From: Natronorubrum thiooxidans
GTDB taxonomy: Archaea > Halobacteriota > Halobacteria > Halobacteriales > Natrialbaceae
NCBI RefSeq assembly: GCF_900156475.1
Contig: NZ_FTNR01000003.1
Coordinates: 62,001-126,000 of the forward strand
DNA: 64,000 nucleotides
Reading direction: 5' to 3'
The number at the start of each line of letters is the position of its first letter. Within the stretch, counting starts at the first letter, position 1. The notes under the pieces were generated by a model that saw nothing but the letters and a program-made list of their open reading frames with translations, ran no database searches and was not told the DNA's origin. Positions 3,860-10,677 of this stretch are shown in pieces. A program made the position numbers and the translations under genes.

Positions 3860-4429
3860 CTACTCAAACGTTCCCGTGTCGCCGCGCCGGTACCGATCCA
3901 GTCGGCGATAGCCATGGACGGTCGCGTCGTCGTCGAGTTCGATCTCGTACCGTCCGATGATGTCCTGGGTGTCGGGGACTGCTCGGCGTTCGACGACCTC
4001 GACGACTGCACGCCAGCCGTCGTCGGTCGGCGCGATTTCGCTGACGGCGTCGAACTCCCGGCCGATGAGTTCGCCGGCCGTCGACTGGACTGTCTGACGA
4101 ACGGTGAGGACGCCGGCGATCTCGTCGTGGTCAGTTTCGACGTCGGCGTCGACCGACTCGGGATCGGTCTTCTCTTCGGCGGTCATATCGACTCCGAGAT
4201 CACGACTTTGGGACTGGCTTTCGTCGGCCTCGTCGGCCTCCTGTGTTCGCTGTTCGTCTTCGACTTGTTCCTGTTCGCCTTCGACTGTTTGACTATCACT
4301 CACAGTTGGATCACTCTCGTCATGTTGGTAGCAGAACCCGTCGTCCTGGGCTGGCCGCGAGCAGCGCTCGCCGTCCTCGGTGAGCGCCTGACACTGCGTC
4401 GCTGATTGCTGTGTCTCGACATCAGCCAT
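3860..4429 (-). CDS. gvpO: Gas vesicle protein GvpO with an N-terminal Cys/His motif
   Basis: 189 residues, third gene of the gvpA-N-O arm. The C-terminal half (about 105-185: VLTVRQTVQSTAGELIGREF, then GWRAVVEVVERRAVPD..DIIGRYEI and YRRLDRYRR) is the GvpO domain, a cytosolic factor needed for gas-vesicle formation or gvp mRNA/protein levels in haloarchaea. Before it is a very acidic linker (40-100). The first 37 residues hold C13, C23, C33 and H36 spaced C-x9-C-x9-C-x2-H, a likely small metal-binding motif that classic halobacterial GvpO does not, to my knowledge, carry. Its stop is the left end of the gas-vesicle locus. Confidence 0.88.
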   Translation of the reverse strand: MADVETQQSATQCQALTEDGERCSRPAQDDGFCYQHDESDPTVSDSQTVEGEQEQVEDEQRTQEADEADESQSQSRDLGVDMTAEEKTDPESVDADVETDHDEIAGVLTVRQTVQSTAGELIGREFDAVSEIAPTDDGWRAVVEVVERRAVPDTQDIIGRYEIELDDDATVHGYRRLDRYRRGDTGTFE

Positions 4430-4506: not shown

Positions 4507-5529
4507 TCAGATCGATTCGGCGATCTGTGTCTGGAGCTGTCTCACGTCATCGGGTCCCTGGCCAGCGATCTTCGGCGCGAGCACGTCCACGAAGACCTCG
4601 GTTAGCAGTTCGTCGTCGAGCGTACCGTTTTCGCCGCTGTCGAAGATCGTGAGTCCCTTTGCGGCCGTGATCGCCGCCCGCGTGCCGACGACGATCTCGA
4701 GGTCATCCCGTAGCGTCCGCATCGTCTCGACGACCACCTCGATGGCCTCTTCCGGAAGGTCGACGTGGGATCGAACGATCTCGCGCTCGGTCTCACCGTC
4801 GTAGTAATCGACGTGGACGCCGACAAACCGATCGAGCAGCGCGTCCTGTTGCTCGTGGACGCCCGCGTACTCGACGTCGTTCGAGGTCAGGATTGCCCGG
4901 AACTCGGGATGGACGTCGATCGATCGATTCTCGCCGCGTTTGCCCGGTCGCTCCAGAACGCCCTCCTCAAAGACCGAGAGCAAGACGTTGTGGGCGGCGG
5001 GATCGCTGCGCGAGAACTCGTTGTAGACGAGCGTTGCTCCCTCCCGGACGGCGACCGACAGTGGATTGTCCACCCAGCGTTCGCGGATGATCTCCGTCTG
5101 TTTGCTCACGCCACTGACGAACCGGTCGTCTTCTTTGTAGCGCTCTCCGCCGGCGTGGTCGCCGACGAGTGCGGCCGTGTCGACGGCCTCGTCTCCATTG
5201 AGCCAGACGACTGGGCGGCCACGCTTGGCAGCCGCTGACAGCGCAAGTGCGGTCTTTCCACAGCCCGTCGGCCCGATCAGATGGACCGGCTGATCCGCCT
5301 CGAGCCAGCCGGTGATCCGTCCACGTAACGCGGTGACGGCATCCGTCTCGACGAAGGGGTCGGGGGTGACGTCTGCTGGATCGGTAAGCGGGCTGTCGCC
5401 GTTCTTCTTGCCCGCGTTCGACGCTTTTCGAGCGAGTTCCTTCTTGGCACGCCGCCCTGCTTTCTGTGAACGGTCGCTTCTGATCTTCCGGCCACGGACC
5501 TTTCGCTTGCGCGAAGCATCGTCTGCCAT
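4507..5529 (-). CDS. gvpN: Gas vesicle AAA+ ATPase GvpN
   Basis: 340 residues. A basic N-terminal tail (about 1-45, rich in K/R) precedes a MoxR/GvpN-type AAA+ domain: Walker A GPTGCGKT at 86-93, Walker B region ATLVYNEFSRS at 165-175, sensor-1 ILTSND at 213-218 and arginine-finger segment DALLDRFVG near 229-237. GvpN is an ATPase required for growth of gas vesicles from bicones to full cylinders. The gene follows gvpA by six bases and lies 77 bases before gvpO, so all three are probably cotranscribed. Confidence 0.93.
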   Translation of the reverse strand: MADDASRKRKVRGRKIRSDRSQKAGRRAKKELARKASNAGKKNGDSPLTDPADVTPDPFVETDAVTALRGRITGWLEADQPVHLIGPTGCGKTALALSAAAKRGRPVVWLNGDEAVDTAALVGDHAGGERYKEDDRFVSGVSKQTEIIRERWVDNPLSVAVREGATLVYNEFSRSDPAAHNVLLSVFEEGVLERPGKRGENRSIDVHPEFRAILTSNDVEYAGVHEQQDALLDRFVGVHVDYYDGETEREIVRSHVDLPEEAIEVVVETMRTLRDDLEIVVGTRAAITAAKGLTIFDSGENGTLDDELLTEVFVDVLAPKIAGQGPDDVRQLQTQIAESI

Positions 5530-5535
5530 GACGTG

Positions 5536-5823
5536 TTATTCAGTGGCAGACTTTGGTGACGATTCTGGACGCTGTTCAACCTCGAGTTCCTCGAGTTCTT
5601 CGAGGTCGCCCTCTGCGGTGGCTTGCTCAATTTTTGCGATCTCCTCCGCGTAGTGCAGGAAGGTGTCGACGGAGGCGACGACGACACGGGCTTCGATCGT
5701 CAGCAGTTCGATCCCGACGACCGAGACCCGCGCCCAGACGTCGATGACGACGCCCTTGTCCAGAATACGGTCCAGTACCTCCGCGAGACTCGAGGAGTCA
5801 GGTCTTCGTTGTGGTTGTGCCAT
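5536..5823 (-). CDS. gvpA: Major gas vesicle structural protein GvpA
   Basis: 95 residues from ATG 5823; an in-frame upstream start would add a six-residue extension not seen in the family. The core [20 protein letters not shown], then [26 protein letters not shown] is diagnostic of GvpA, the small amphipathic protein that assembles into the ribbed gas-vesicle wall. The C-terminus is an acidic glutamate-rich tail ([20 protein letters not shown]) longer than in bacterial GvpA. No gvpC follows; gvpN starts within six bases of its stop. It is transcribed away from gvpF across a 361-base control region. Confidence 0.96.
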
Positions 5824-6184
5824 ACTACATGCAGGATACATCTGGGATTCCTAACACGGCTGGCGCTGCGACTGCAAGCCCCTCTGACACGGTCAGTCGA
5901 GCCCGTGTCCACGTTCACGATCGCCCGAGCGAAGGCTGCGACTGCAAGCAGCATAATAACCCGGCGCGGTGGTGTACCTCTCGTGATGAGTTGCCCGAGT
6001 ATCCGCGGGTGAAGCCACCGAGTCGTGCTCGCGTTTCACCCCCGGGTAGTCGACGACTAGTTCCCATGAGATCCATTCGATCGATCCCCCTCGAGGCCGA
6101 CGCTGAACTGAGCCCCTGGCCGCGGGCACGAGTCGCATCGTCCACTGACCGACGACGGCAACACGCTGGTCGGGTGAGCATCCG
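5824..6184. promoter_or_regulatory. Divergent gvpA/gvpF control region
   Basis: 361 bases without a gene between the two divergent gas-vesicle arms. In Halobacterium and Haloferax the corresponding space holds gvpD and gvpE on one side and the GvpE-dependent promoters. Here neither gene is present. The region contains a 15 bp direct repeat (5865-5879 and 5935-5949) and an AT-rich GCATAATAAC tract (about 5951-5960) that could be a TATA element for either arm. No other structure was recognised. Confidence 0.6.
5865..5949. repeat. 15 bp direct repeat pair upstream of gvpA
   Basis: GCTGCGACTGCAAGC occurs at 5865-5879 and again, identical, at 5935-5949, 70 bases apart, both within the gvpA/gvpF intergenic region. 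Two exact 15-mers in 361 bases are very unlikely by chance. They may be binding sites of a regulator or the footprint of a small duplication. The repeat is seen directly; the role is inferred. Confidence 0.7.
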
Positions 6185-6808
6185 ATGACCAACCGGTACG
6201 TCTACGGCGTCATGACCGACGAACCAGTCGAGTTCGAAACCGATGCTGTCGGTGGCGCAGACCGCGTCTACACGGTCTCGCATCGCCGCCTCAGTGCCGT
6301 CGTCTCCACCATCGACACCACGGATCCCGAAGAGACCGACGCGGACGCCCAGCGCCACGATGACGTCCTCCGGGAGATCATGGACCGTGACGGCGGGCGG
6401 ACGATCGTCCCGATGCAGTTCGGGATGGCCTTCGAGAGCGACCGAGCGCTGAAGAACGTCCTTCGTGGCGCGAAACCGGCGTTTCGGCGCGCAATCAACG
6501 ATATCGAGGGACGGATCGAACTCGGCCTCAAACTCGTCCGCGAGGAGGACGCCGACGTCGACGTGGATGCGGTCGAGAAGGCCGTCGCAGACGAACTCAA
6601 CCCCATCGCCGCCCAGTCGGTCCCAAATGACCTGTTCAGCGATCGGCTCGTACTCAATCGCTCCTATCTCGTCGATCGCGACGACCGCGAGCGCTTCGAC
6701 GAGGCGATCGCCCGATTCGAGGACGAACACGACGACCTCATCGTTCGATACACGGGGCCGTTCGCACCGTACAGCTTCGTCGACGTCAAAATCGGAGCCC
6801 AGCGCTAA
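6185..6808 (+). CDS. gvpF: Gas vesicle protein GvpF
   Basis: 207 residues. The start YVYGVMTDEPVEF, the central VPMQFGMAFESD and the end VRYTGPFAPYSFVDVKI are hallmarks of the GvpF/GvpL family, two-domain accessory proteins; GvpF binds GvpA and is thought to keep it from aggregating before assembly. It is the first gene of the rightward arm, and the remaining seven or eight genes follow with overlaps of a few bases, so they form one operon. GvpL, four genes downstream, is a paralogue. Confidence 0.94.
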   Translation: MTNRYVYGVMTDEPVEFETDAVGGADRVYTVSHRRLSAVVSTIDTTDPEETDADAQRHDDVLREIMDRDGGRTIVPMQFGMAFESDRALKNVLRGAKPAFRRAINDIEGRIELGLKLVREEDADVDVDAVEKAVADELNPIAAQSVPNDLFSDRLVLNRSYLVDRDDRERFDEAIARFEDEHDDLIVRYTGPFAPYSFVDVKIGAQR

Positions 6809-6810
6809 CC

Positions 6811-7065
6811 ATGTTCATCCTCGACGATCTCCTGTTTCGGCCGTTCGTCGGCATCGTGGATACACTGCACACGATGGCACTCAGCGAGATCTACGACATC
6901 GACGCGCTCGAGGACGAACTCAAGGAAAACCAGCTGCTGTACGAACTCGGCGAACGCCCCGAGACGGAGTACCAGCGACGCAAGGACGAACTCGAGGACG
7001 AACTCGAGATCGCCCGCGACGTGCACGAACGGCTCACGAGCGGTCGTGTGGAGGTGAAATCGTAA
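6811..7065 (+). CDS. gvpG: Gas vesicle protein GvpG
   Basis: 84 residues, two bases after gvpF. The hydrophobic start FILDDLLFRPFVGIVDTLHT followed by an acidic coiled-coil-like stretch (LEDELKENQLLYELGERPE and RRKDELEDELEIARDV) is the standard GvpG profile. GvpG is an essential accessory protein of vesicle assembly that interacts with the other Gvp F-M proteins. Its TAA stop shares one base with the ATG of gvpH (TAATG), indicating coupled translation. Confidence 0.92.
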   Translation: MFILDDLLFRPFVGIVDTLHTMALSEIYDIDALEDELKENQLLYELGERPETEYQRRKDELEDELEIARDVHERLTSGRVEVKS

Positions 7066-7631
7066 TGCCACCAACCGATCCCGAACGGGACGATACGTCG
7101 GACGAATCGGCCGACGAGACCCACTGGCTCTCGAATCTGTTCACAGCGCTGCAGTGGCTCGACGATTCGACGTCGGGACGACGTGACGACCGAACGAGAT
7201 TCGATTACGACGTGTCGATCCGCACTGGGATATCGTCCGACGACGACCCACAGTTCGAACGACGACCGTTCTCCCGCGAGGAGTCCGCCCGAGGGCGGGA
7301 GCGAGAGCATAGTCGATCACGAACGCGACGCGACCGTTCGGATGCGCCCTCGGTGACACCCTCGAGCGACCACCACCTGACGACGCGAGAGTTCGAGGAC
7401 GAACTGCTTGTAATCGCCGACGTAGCCGGTGCCAATCCGGACGACGTCACCGTCGGCTTCGGCGACGACGCGACGCTCGTCGTCGCCGTCTCGGATCGGG
7501 AACTCGGCCGTCTCGAGGTCCCCTGGCGCGATTGGACGGCCGATGCGGTGATCACGAACGGCGTGCTCACCGTCCGGGTCAGGCCGGACCCGACGGCGAC
7601 CGGAACCAACGAGCAGGAGGGCGACGAATGA
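7065..7631 (+). CDS. gvpH: Gas vesicle protein GvpH (small heat-shock-like)
   Basis: 188 residues from the ATG at 7065, which overlaps the gvpG stop. The C-terminal part (about 105-175: LTTREFEDELLVIADVAGAN, DDVTVGFGDDATLVVAVSDR) is an Hsp20/alpha-crystallin-like domain, as in GvpH, a chaperone-like accessory protein that acts with GvpL and GvpM. The N-terminal 100 residues are low-complexity, charged and probably disordered. The stop overlaps the start of the next gene by four bases (ATGA). Confidence 0.88.
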   Translation: MPPTDPERDDTSDESADETHWLSNLFTALQWLDDSTSGRRDDRTRFDYDVSIRTGISSDDDPQFERRPFSREESARGREREHSRSRTRRDRSDAPSVTPSSDHHLTTREFEDELLVIADVAGANPDDVTVGFGDDATLVVAVSDRELGRLEVPWRDWTADAVITNGVLTVRVRPDPTATGTNEQEGDE

Positions 7632-8539
7632 GCTCCGATAACACAGACAAGGGTTTCGACGCACTGCTCGAGGACGCCATAGAGAGCCTCCAGCGGCTCG
7701 AATCGACGCTCGGCGACGCGGAGACGCTCGACGCACTCGACGACGAGACCATCGAGACGGCAATCGGCGACGTCGACACCCTCGCGCAGGTGGCAACCGA
7801 AGTCGGTGACCTGATCGAGGCGATGAATCTGCGCGAGTTGCCGGCGGCAGTCGACGGCGACAAACTCCTCGAGGCGATCGAACTGGGCGAGATCCCCGAC
7901 GTGCTGGCAAACGAGGACGAGGGCGTCAGCGAACTCGTCGACTTCACGGCGCTGGTCGACGCGATCAACTTGCTGAACGCCTGGAACGCCACGGACCTGA
8001 CCGACGTCTGGGAGGAGAAACGCGAACTGGACGGCGCGATCGACGACCTCGAGGACGGCGACGACGCCGGAGTGGTCGAAAACGCCGTGGCGGGCATCGC
8101 CGACGATGATGGCGGGCAGTTCCTCGGCGATGACGAGGACGACCTCATCGAAACGGGGATGGACTCGGCGACCGCGGCAAAGGAGGCCCTCGGTGACATC
8201 GACGTTGCGGAGGACCCCGAGGCCTACCAAGTGGCCATCCAGCAGCAGGCGATGACGGGGATCGACGCCTTCCGCTGGGCGCTGCTCGAGACCCACGAGC
8301 AGTTCGAACGACTCTACGAACAAAACCGCGAGCAGATGCGCCGGCAGGATACCAGCACGAACTCGCGGAACCCGACCGCGGCGTCGACGATCCCGACCGA
8401 TCGCCGCGACCTCGGCGGTGGGGCACGGTATGCGACCGTCCCACGGGACGTCAAACTCTCGACAGCACCCAGCCGAACGCGGATCTACGGCCGCCGGTTC
8501 GAGCTCGAACGGGAAAAACGGAGATCCACCAATGACTGA
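7628..8539 (+). CDS. Gas-vesicle operon protein at the GvpI position (unrecognised N-terminal domain, basic GvpI-like tail)
   Basis: 303 residues between gvpH and gvpJ, the slot of gvpI. Haloarchaeal GvpI is normally a small basic protein of about 100-145 residues; this one is over twice as long. The first 220 residues are acidic and helical with regular leucine spacing (IESLQRLESTLGDAETLDAL; LPAAVDGDKLLEAIELGEIP) and match no family I can name. The last 60 are basic and end VPRDVKLSTAPSRTRIYGRR, which could be the GvpI part. The start overlaps gvpH by four bases. It may be a fusion of GvpI to an extra domain, or a different gas-vesicle factor replacing it. Confidence 0.75.
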   Translation: MSSDNTDKGFDALLEDAIESLQRLESTLGDAETLDALDDETIETAIGDVDTLAQVATEVGDLIEAMNLRELPAAVDGDKLLEAIELGEIPDVLANEDEGVSELVDFTALVDAINLLNAWNATDLTDVWEEKRELDGAIDDLEDGDDAGVVENAVAGIADDDGGQFLGDDEDDLIETGMDSATAAKEALGDIDVAEDPEAYQVAIQQQAMTGIDAFRWALLETHEQFERLYEQNREQMRRQDTSTNSRNPTAASTIPTDRRDLGGGARYATVPRDVKLSTAPSRTRIYGRRFELEREKRRSTND

Positions 8540-8639
8540 CCCACCCACACTGGCCCGGAGACGACGTGAGCTGACGAGTACCGTCCTCGAACCGACGGCA
8601 TCGACGACTCGACCCGGAGGTGAGCGCCATGGTCGATGA
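8532..8639 (+). CDS. Possible 35-residue basic peptide between gvpI-like gene and gvpJ
   Basis: An ATG at 8532 overlaps the stop of the preceding gene and opens a 35-codon frame (MTDPPTLARRRRELTSTV...) that ends 11 bases inside gvpJ. It is arginine-rich. It could be a real mini-gene, a broken copy of gvpI, or only a translational bridge that carries ribosomes to the gvpJ ribosome-binding site. No family was recognised, so existence as a protein is uncertain. Confidence 0.3.
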   Translation: MTDPPTLARRRRELTSTVLEPTASTTRPGGERHGR

Positions 8640-9111
8640 CTTCCAGCCGAGTCGACAGAAGACCGACCTCGCGGAGGTCGTCGAGATGCTACTGGACAAA
8701 GGCATCGTCATCAACGCCGACATCGCCGTCTCGATCGGCGACACGCAGCTACTGGGCGTTCAGATCCGGGCTGCCATCGCGTCCTTCGAGACGGCGGCAA
8801 AGTACGGCCTCGAGTTCCCCGAGGGGACCGACATGCGTCGCGTCGCCGCCGCGGTCGACGATCCCGAACTCGCCGAGATGGAGCGGCCGAAGCCCCCAAT
8901 CGATCCGACGCGTGGCGTCAACGTCACCCCCGACGAACGGTACGCAGACGAGACGCGAGCGGACGACTCGAGCGAGGACGAACGCGACGACTCGAGCGCC
9001 GACGGGAACGACGAGAGCGGCGACGACAGCGCCGACACGGGCGACGGCATCGACACGGAGACCGAGGAAGACGAAGCGCAGACAGCGGACACGAAGGGTG
9101 AGAACGCATGA
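8629..9111 (+). CDS. gvpJ: Gas vesicle protein GvpJ (GvpA paralogue)
   Basis: 160 residues. I choose ATG 8629 because GGAGG (8616-8620) lies eight bases upstream; a GTG at 8620 would overlap that site. Residues 8-65 ([40 protein letters not shown]) are the GvpA/GvpJ/GvpM fold, a minor wall or tip component that shapes the vesicle. The C-terminal 70 residues are an extremely acidic, Ser/Asp/Glu-rich tail (about 100-160), longer than in Halobacterium GvpJ. The stop overlaps gvpK by four bases. Confidence 0.92.
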
Positions 9112-9452
9112 CCCAGATCGATGTCGGTGACGGCGAGGACGCACGCCAGGGACTGGTTAGTCTCGTTGTCACTGTCATCGAGATCCTGATCGACGCCTTA
9201 GAGCGCGAAGCCGTCCGTCGCATGGAGTCGGGTAACCTCTCTGACGAGGAAATCGAGCGCCTCGGCCGCCAGCTCGCGACGATCGAAGCCGAGATCGAAC
9301 AGCTCAAACGCGACGAAGAGATCGAAGACAGCGTCGACGGTCTTCGAGACGATCTGAACGGACTGGTCAACGACGCGATCGAACAGCTCCACGGCGAGCC
9401 GGAGATCGCCCACGCGCCCGGCTACTCCGTGTTCGGGGGTGACGAGCAGTGA
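9108..9452 (+). CDS. gvpK: Gas vesicle protein GvpK
   Basis: 114 residues matching GvpK end to end: [39 protein letters not shown] and the C-terminal [12 protein letters not shown]. GvpK is an accessory protein conserved in all gas-vesicle clusters, with coiled-coil potential at about 45-75. Start ATG overlaps the gvpJ stop and its own stop overlaps the GTG start of gvpL. Confidence 0.93.
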
Positions 9453-10357
9453 GCTCCGACCGATCGGACCGACTCGAGGGCGTCGATGATGTCGACACAG
9501 CTGGCGACGACGCGGTCCCCGAGATCGATACCGGTCGATATCTCTACTGTCTCGTTCGGGCCGACGAGGGCGAATCACTCGAGACGACCGGCGTCGACGG
9601 CGAACCCGTCTCGGTTATTACTGAGGACGGTATCGGTGCAGTCGTCCACGCCTGCGATGGTCTCTACGACTCGGCGGATCTCACGCAGATCCGGCGCTGG
9701 CTCGTCCGTCACCAGACGGTCGTCGACGAGGCCGGCGAGGTCTTTGGCACACCGGTTCCGTTCCAGTTCGATACGATCCTCCGTGGCGACGACGATGGCG
9801 TCCGCGAGTGGCTTCGCGAGGAATCCGACACCCTCGAGCGGGCGCTATCGGGGCTGGCGGACCACTGGGAGTACCGGGTCGAGGTCGTCGAAACCGAGCC
9901 GATCAGCGACGACGCACTGTGCGAGCGCGATGATCGGCTCCGGGAACTCGAGTCGAAGATCGACGACGCCGAAGAAGGGGCGGCGTACCTGCTCGAGAAG
10001 CAGTTCGACCAGCGGCTCAAAGAGTTGCGGGCTGTCCGTCGCGAATCGCTGACGGCCGACCTGCAGACGCGACTCGACGAGCATGCACGGGAGGTCCACG
10101 CGCTCGAGCGCTCGCCAACGGCATCGCTTTCGGACGAGGTGGCTGATGCTGACGGCGACGGGAGTGACGGCGAAACACTCTGTCGGCTCACATTGCTCGC
10201 CCACGAAGACGACGAAGGGGGTCTCGGCTCGGTCTTAGATGACGTCGCAGCGAACGACGGTGTCAAAGTCAGGTTCACTGGCCCGTGGCCGCCGTACACG
10301 TTCGCGCCGGAACTGGGCGGCGATGACGAGCCGACAGACACACCCACACACGCATGA
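9449..10357 (+). CDS. gvpL: Gas vesicle protein GvpL
   Basis: 302 residues, GTG start overlapping the gvpK stop (GTGA). Family signs: [10 protein letters not shown] near 31-40, [11 protein letters not shown] near 105-115, and the end [14 protein letters not shown]. It is a paralogue of GvpF, about 90 residues longer because of an acidic N-terminus and a coiled-coil insertion (about 165-235). GvpL acts as a hub that binds most other accessory Gvp proteins in Halobacterium. Its stop overlaps gvpM. Confidence 0.93.
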
Positions 10358-10677
10358 GACCGCAAAAAGACGAGGAGGCACTCGTCGACGTCCTCGACGT
10401 CCTGCTCAGGGATGGGGCGATCTTGCGTGCGGACGTGATCGTCTCGGTCGCGGAGATTCCGCTCGTCGGGATCAAGCTCACGGCCGCGATCGCTGGCATG
10501 GAGACGATGAACGAGTACGGCCTCTTCGAAGAGTGGGATATCGAGCGCCGGCGGTCGGCGGTCACACGTCGCCAACACCGACGCGAGCGAAACAGAAACA
10601 CAGCCGACCACGACCGAGTCGCGGGCGGGGGGTCACAGATATCCGATCAGGCTCGAACCGAGGACGGGTCCGAGTGA
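10354..10677 (+). CDS. gvpM: Gas vesicle protein GvpM (GvpA paralogue)
   Basis: 107 residues, last gene of the rightward arm. Residues 7-60 (EEALVDVLDVLLRDGAILRA, DVIVSVAEIPLVGIKLTAAI) carry the GvpA/J/M fold, and GMETMNEYGLFEEWD follows. GvpM is a minor, hydrophobic accessory protein kept soluble by GvpH and GvpL. The last 40 residues are basic to mixed and unlike GvpA. Its start overlaps the gvpL stop. Fifty bases downstream a convergent small zinc protein ends, marking the border of the cluster. Confidence 0.92.
   Translation: MRPQKDEEALVDVLDVLLRDGAILRADVIVSVAEIPLVGIKLTAAIAGMETMNEYGLFEEWDIERRRSAVTRRQHRRERNRNTADHDRVAGGGSQISDQARTEDGSE

Follow-up and report, generated by a model that had tools for sequence, protein, structure and literature searches.

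A long form of the gas vesicle protein GvpI with an acidic N-terminal arm in Natronorubrum thiooxidans, and its relation to GvpC

GvpI has been described in a review as a haloarchaea-specific gas vesicle protein (PMC9501494). In Halobacterium it is reported to be non-essential, its loss leading to extremely long vesicles; it carries 23 lysine or arginine residues among its first 53, has GvpH as a strong binding partner and GvpL and GvpF as further ones, and makes GvpJ, GvpK and GvpM multimerise in pull-down experiments (PMC7688916). GvpH binding and the limitation of vesicle length are known for Halobacterium GvpI only. Halobacterium GvpC has been reported to interact with GvpF, GvpH, GvpI and GvpL (PMC9372576; tabulated in PMC9501494). 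An N-terminal extension of GvpI was reported in 2012 for Natrialba magadii and Haloterrigena turkmenica, whose clusters are highly similar, that of N. magadii being without gvpC, gvpD and gvpE (PMC3403918). We likened these two proteins (Nmag_0338 and Htur_2370) to the one studied here by their description only; the part of that account which concerns them does not discuss repeats, spread or paralogs. Besides this paper we found no report of the extension in the open-licence literature, nor any survey of a long form, of its relation to GvpC, of a nine-residue repeat or of a paralog linked to pdxS.

We analysed a stretch of 64,000 nucleotides from N. thiooxidans (the window). Its gvp cluster is split between the two strands, gvpO, gvpN and gvpA being read from the minus strand and gvpF through gvpM from the plus strand:

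3860 to 4429, minus strand: gvpO (profile match)
4507 to 5529, minus strand: gvpN (profile match)
5536 to 5841, minus strand: gvpA (profile match)
6185 to 6808, plus strand: gvpF (profile match)
6811 to 7065, plus strand: gvpG (profile match)
7065 to 7631, plus strand: gvpH (position in the cluster), overlapping gvpI by 4 nt
7628 to 8539, plus strand, stop included: gvpI, long form, 303 aa (ORF call, homologue and profile matches)
7628 to 8212, plus strand: residues 1-195, acidic and helical arm at the N-terminus, lacking in short GvpI
7769 to 8059, plus strand: residues 48-144, region of nine-residue repeats (z 19 at lag 9, z 13 at lag 18)
8213 to 8536, plus strand: residues 196-303, GvpI core with helix 197-240 and tail NPTAxSTxP ... 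TVP ... RIYGxRF
8532 to 8639, plus strand: ORF of 35 codons that overlaps gvpI at its 3' end and gvpJ at its 5' end
8629 to 9111, plus strand: gvpJ (profile match)
9108 to 9452, plus strand: gvpK (profile match)
9449 to 10357, plus strand: gvpL (profile match)
10354 to 10677, plus strand: gvpM (profile match)

The first-pass annotation had placed a 303-residue protein in the gvpI position and had considered its gene translationally coupled to gvpH. Both points hold. The ORF is real and lies between gvpH and gvpJ in the gvp operon; its ATG at 7628 overlaps the gvpH stop by 4 nt, and its stop ends at 8539. Across the window and 39 named loci, with start codons chosen by a script, an overlap of 4 to 11 nt is present in 39 of 40 clusters; L110 is without detectable gvpH. 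The gene is conserved in 38 of the 61 genomes searched, the window's own included. Its closest counterpart among plasmid records is that of Natronorubrum bangense (89%), which is annotated there as 'hypothetical protein'; a simple Nei-Gojobori comparison of the two gives a dN/dS of 0.36 for the whole gene, of 0.39 within residues 1-195 and of 0.27 within residues 196-303. N. bangense has the cluster in both a chromosome and a plasmid record (L073, L074) with equal identity to the window, reflecting either a duplication or an assembly artefact. Neither the 303-residue protein nor the one short GvpI that was searched matches any Pfam or NCBIfam model, so that a GvpI family model is warranted.

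Some neighbouring features are recorded here. GvpO shows a DUF5763 match at its N-terminus (E 4e-19) ahead of the GvpO domain. GvpH is in place, yet the Pfam model for GvpH does not match it at E up to 1, and its C-terminal half yields only sub-threshold matches to DUF7127 and HSP20. The 35-codon ORF is a possible coupling leader, and our guess is that it corresponds to the 'additional gene' Nmag_0337 of PMC3403918. At the same junction of gvpI and gvpJ, an ORF of 31 to 67 codons, often beginning MTD, is present in 18 of 21 Natrialbaceae loci, the 21 coming from 39 such loci submitted; of the remaining three, L085 and L080 have 8 codons at the start tested and L103 has none. Adjoining the cluster, at 484 to 2701 on the minus strand, the translations read like an ABC transporter ATPase, a permease and an HTH regulator.

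When the 303-residue protein was searched as a single sequence against 3416 ORFs from fetched loci, it matched GvpI of Halobacterium pNRC200 at E 8e-7. Residues 204-303 align to residues 16-113 of the 113-residue Halobacterium protein, which makes the long protein a GvpI with an N-terminal extension. In profile-profile comparison with ten short GvpIs, residues 196-303 reached a probability of 99% (E 7.4e-18) over 100 columns, that is, nearly the whole short GvpI, and the N-terminal part reached 0.1%. A tail model based on long forms alone recovered all ten short GvpIs (E 2e-18 to 3.4e-6), the best decoy among 22,348 reversed or shuffled sequences scoring E 0.017. Over 11,174 ORFs this model gave 155 matches at E up to 10, of which 142 had been found previously by GvpI queries. 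The eight listed among the other 13 comprise two broken gvpI-like remnants (each in two loci) and four matches at E 0.002-0.008, three of these four being one stretch of genome G159. All ten invariant columns of a 25-member alignment fall at residues 205-290. With Halobacterium salinarum GvpI (pNRC200, 113 aa in the record used) the protein shares the position between gvpH and gvpJ, the overlap with gvpH, the basic core, and the helix followed by the tail NPxAxSTxP / STVP / RLYGxR; the Halobacterium protein differs in being without the 195-residue acidic arm, and its cluster has GvpC, GvpD and GvpE. Judged by these alignments, the gene is gvpI in a long form, and its last ~100 residues make up a complete GvpI unit. 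The protein is not short and basic overall, having 303 residues with a basic core and an acidic arm; we do not treat shortness as defining for GvpI, since 113-149 aa is typical of a minority type only.

The protein had initially been put forward as the best candidate for an undescribed component. This proposal is withdrawn, as residues 204-303 match nearly all of GvpI and the extension has been in print for two species since 2012 (PMC3403918). Similarity to an established Gvp family over the whole length, which was to decide the matter, is nearly entire when seen from GvpI; seen from the long protein, a stretch of 195 residues is left without any known counterpart. With about two thirds of its length matching no known family, one could suppose a new vesicle component that resembles GvpI in its tail through convergence on a docking motif. 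We regard this as highly improbable, because the match spans nearly all of short GvpI, the helix ahead of the tail included, the operon slot is the same as that of gvpI, and short and long GvpI stand side by side in none of the clusters listed. The original division into an acidic domain of 220 residues and a basic tail was correct as to charge (pI 4.05 for residues 1-220, 10.4 for residues 221-303). The tail is not a separate unit, being only part of the conserved GvpI unit that starts near residue 200.

AlphaFold2 (39-row alignment) predicts helices and no strands for the protein, with low overall confidence (mean pLDDT 61, pTM 0.34); the putative helices of the arm are at residues 6-30, 39-65, 77-86, 106-121 and 125-142; residues 144-185 have a pLDDT under 50 and are followed by the core helix 197-240. 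Self-similarity within residues 48-144 (mean BLOSUM, 25 members) is highest at lag 9 (z 19.3); lag 18 reaches z 13.0, and shorter lags are likewise raised (lag 3 z 15.8, lag 6 z 10.3). These z values were taken against 200 shuffles and, the members being related, overstate the independent evidence. DPEELPDAI is one repeat unit, from the unlinked plasmid copy of Halalkalicoccus jeotgali. Mean identity by stretch is 0.46-0.63 in the arm vs 0.76-0.81 in the core. No relatives of the arm were found in Pfam, NCBIfam or the PDB; the best PDB match by sequence (E 0.0016) was not convincing, no stretch passing alone, nor was the best Foldseek match of the weak AlphaFold2 model (E 0.77). The initial description of the protein as one of unknown fold holds for its N-terminal part, the predicted model being too weak for interpretation.

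Among 342 genomes of the order, a GvpI-like match is present in 143, GvpK in 141 and both in 140. By match strength the 143 comprise 132 with a long form, nine with a short form and two with broken remnants, where a long form means a best match at E 6e-36 or lower, lengths being measured in fetched loci only. In the nine short-form genomes the match is limited to the C-terminal third, and the proteins have 113-149 aa. G159, in which the gene lies in two frames at a contig end, was counted as long, as was G305, in which the best match is not beside gvpK and the copy within the cluster spans the long profile as two pieces that overlap. GvpK without GvpI occurs in G349 only, which was kept outside the short/long count for want of a gvpI match; its gvpK shares a 6.9-kb contig with an adjacent gvpC reading frame. 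The reverse, a GvpI-like match without GvpK, occurs in G126, G184 and G350; G126 is a 61% complete genome with its gvpI-like gene on a 4.3-kb contig together with other gvp genes. Besides its long-form match, G061 has a second, partial cluster gvpFGHIJKLM (L145) with a 116-aa GvpI, in whose fetched 10 kb no gvpA, C, N or O was found. Outside the order none of the 15 GvpK-bearing genomes of the phylum has a GvpI match, so that GvpI is tied to haloarchaeal gvp clusters (140 of the 141 GvpK genomes of the order). Carriage by viruses was considered and dropped, none of 17 pattern matches in viral contigs being confirmed. In Halocatena marina a long GvpI-like gene (L052, 8527-9636) lies beyond gvpO on the gvpA strand, not between gvpH and gvpJ.

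GvpC is present in nine of nine short-form genomes, the partial short-form cluster of G061 being without it, and in none of the long-form clusters fetched. The Pfam model of the GvpC repeats (PF05465) matches 12 of the 342 genomes, eight of which are short-form genomes with gvpC next to gvpA. In G014, the ninth short-form genome, Pfam missed GvpC; a 416-aa acidic ORF in the gvpA-gvpN slot was found there by a GvpC profile of eight sequences (E 1.3e-4). In the long-form clusters among L001-L151 and the window's first 16 kb this profile gave no match at E up to 1, and since Pfam missed the GvpC of G014, diverged GvpCs in unfetched long-form genomes could be missed too. G349 is a further PF05465 genome, and the single weak matches in G080, G087 and G102 were discarded as chance, G080 being without a GvpK match and those of G087 and G102, both long-form genomes, lying away from the gvp cluster. 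Among 67 long-form clusters examined, 66 have gvpN or gvpO no more than 172 nt after gvpA, too short a gap to hold gvpC; the 67th has no detectable gvpA. In the window the gap between gvpA and gvpN is 6 nt and the usual gvpC slot is empty. By gene content, long GvpI and GvpC were thus never found in the same cluster. This relation and the order-wide spread of the long form (132 of 143) are new here.

Is the arm itself a relative of GvpC? The 303-residue protein has no Pfam match to the PF05465 repeats, and with a profile-profile probability of only 0.5% this kinship was set aside as unsupported. GvpC resembles the arm as an acidic helical repeat protein, and in Halobacterium it is reported to interact with GvpI, GvpL, GvpF and GvpH; unlike the arm it is encoded by a separate gene, its Pfam repeat has 32 positions vs 9, and profile similarity is absent.

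When GvpA, F, G, J, K, L and M of 52 clusters of our choosing were concatenated for a tree, the ten short-form clusters (the nine with GvpC and the partial one of G061) form one clade, with SH-aLRT 99 in a quick search and 100 when six outgroup clusters are included. Rooting was used to distinguish loss of the arm from its gain: in the quick outgroup tree the short clade falls next to part of the long forms (support 82), and a tree with all long forms together is 14.5 log units better than this free search (p-AU 0.857). Repeated independent swaps of GvpC and arm were not found, the short forms being a single clade. The complementarity therefore amounts to one evolutionary event, however many species show it, and may be an accident of descent. 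There is an even chance that it is mere phylogeny, reflecting two ancient types of cluster with many differences between them: gvpD and gvpE mostly track the short type (seven of the eight clusters with Pfam-detected GvpC, L112-L119) and occur in none of the long-form loci listed. Such descent leaves the role of the arm unexplained and is compatible with either of the other readings given below.

Nineteen regions around second or diverged gvpI-like matches were fetched. Five are gvp clusters, and 14 (L031-L037, L039, L042-L044, L047-L049) have no other gvp gene within about 6-8 kb. Ten of the 14 unlinked copies lie downstream of pdxS on the same strand, two of the ten with another large ORF between; pdxS was identified by Pfam (SOR_SNZ) in two regions and by similarity to those two in the others. 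Each of these 14 genomes has, in addition, a match that adjoins gvp genes. Among the 201 GvpK-less genomes of the order there is no intact unlinked match at E up to 0.001, the only matches being those of G126, G184 and G350. The broken remnants in G184 and G350 (loci L150, near 6300, and L151, near 7080) are just downstream of pdxS and cut short, one with an internal stop. These two cases suggest that the pdxS-linked copy may serve gas vesicles and decay without them. The sole other match in the window's own genome is a third kind of gvpI-like gene, a 268-aa ORF on contig C41 with a weak arm match (E 1e-7) and E 3e-10 to a GvpI profile, whose tail ends ahead of RIYG; no gvp gene was found in the 18 kb fetched.

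Two members of an acidic protein family with glycine-zipper-like stretches, such as GALGAIIGRKLG, adjoin this third gene (G000:C41; family region L161 8041-8847, 8898-9887 and 9939-10598, minus strand). The family recurs at gvp-cluster edges (L038, L041, L045, L051, L053, L108, L122-L124, L126, L129, L130, L133-L136, L138, L139 and others), in 21 of 132 gvpK loci and in L139, and stands directly before gvpI in L045, L053 and L130. An iterated profile gathered 30 ORFs, 28 of them within about 2 kb of a gvp gene, a set that acidic bias and profile drift may inflate, the bias exceeding the score in some. As a candidate for an undescribed vesicle component, this family ranks above long GvpI.

Concerning function, the role in vesicle assembly proposed in the first-pass annotation is likely. 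By analogy, the role of Halobacterium GvpI probably holds for the core here: it would be made early and in small amounts together with GvpF-GvpM, pair with GvpH, dock on GvpL and GvpF and limit vesicle elongation. The arm would serve the basic core as an acidic partner in cis, and could do in cis part of what GvpC does in trans, namely contact and shape the shell; that it stands in, partly, for GvpC on the shell is a tentative and rather unlikely proposal. Its main rival is plain charge shielding, whereby the arm would be an acidic solubility and anti-clumping domain, neutralising the very basic core in cis without any link to GvpC. This has a real chance of being right, somewhat short of even: the pI of 4.05 for the arm vs 10.4 to 11.5 for the core, the multimerisation of GvpJ, GvpK and GvpM by Halobacterium GvpI in pull-downs (PMC7688916) and the lower conservation of the arm all fit it, but shielding needs no nine-residue repeat kept across families, and short GvpI manages without an arm. 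If not GvpC-like, the arm would mainly keep the basic core from clumping acidic Gvp proteins. Taken as a whole, a long-form gvpI with such roles of core and arm is in our view the best explanation of the locus, with a probability of roughly 0.75. Since a 2015 review lists five species with clusters lacking gvpC and gvpDE as vesicle-negative (PMC4390858), caution is needed as to the working of the long-form system.

Experiments on GvpI, as described for Halobacterium, used the short form. In most haloarchaeal genomes with a gvp cluster the protein has two to three times that length, is labelled hypothetical in the records examined and goes together with the absence of GvpC. A speculative, on balance doubtful, view is that haloarchaea have two differently built systems: a common one without GvpC, whose shell-shaping partner would be built into GvpI as an acidic arm of nine-residue repeats and which the paralog beside pdxS would also serve, decaying with cluster loss, and a minority one with short GvpI and GvpC. 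The long form offers a direct approach to what sets the shape and strength of vesicles when GvpC is missing, and its arm is a domain to graft for vesicle engineering.
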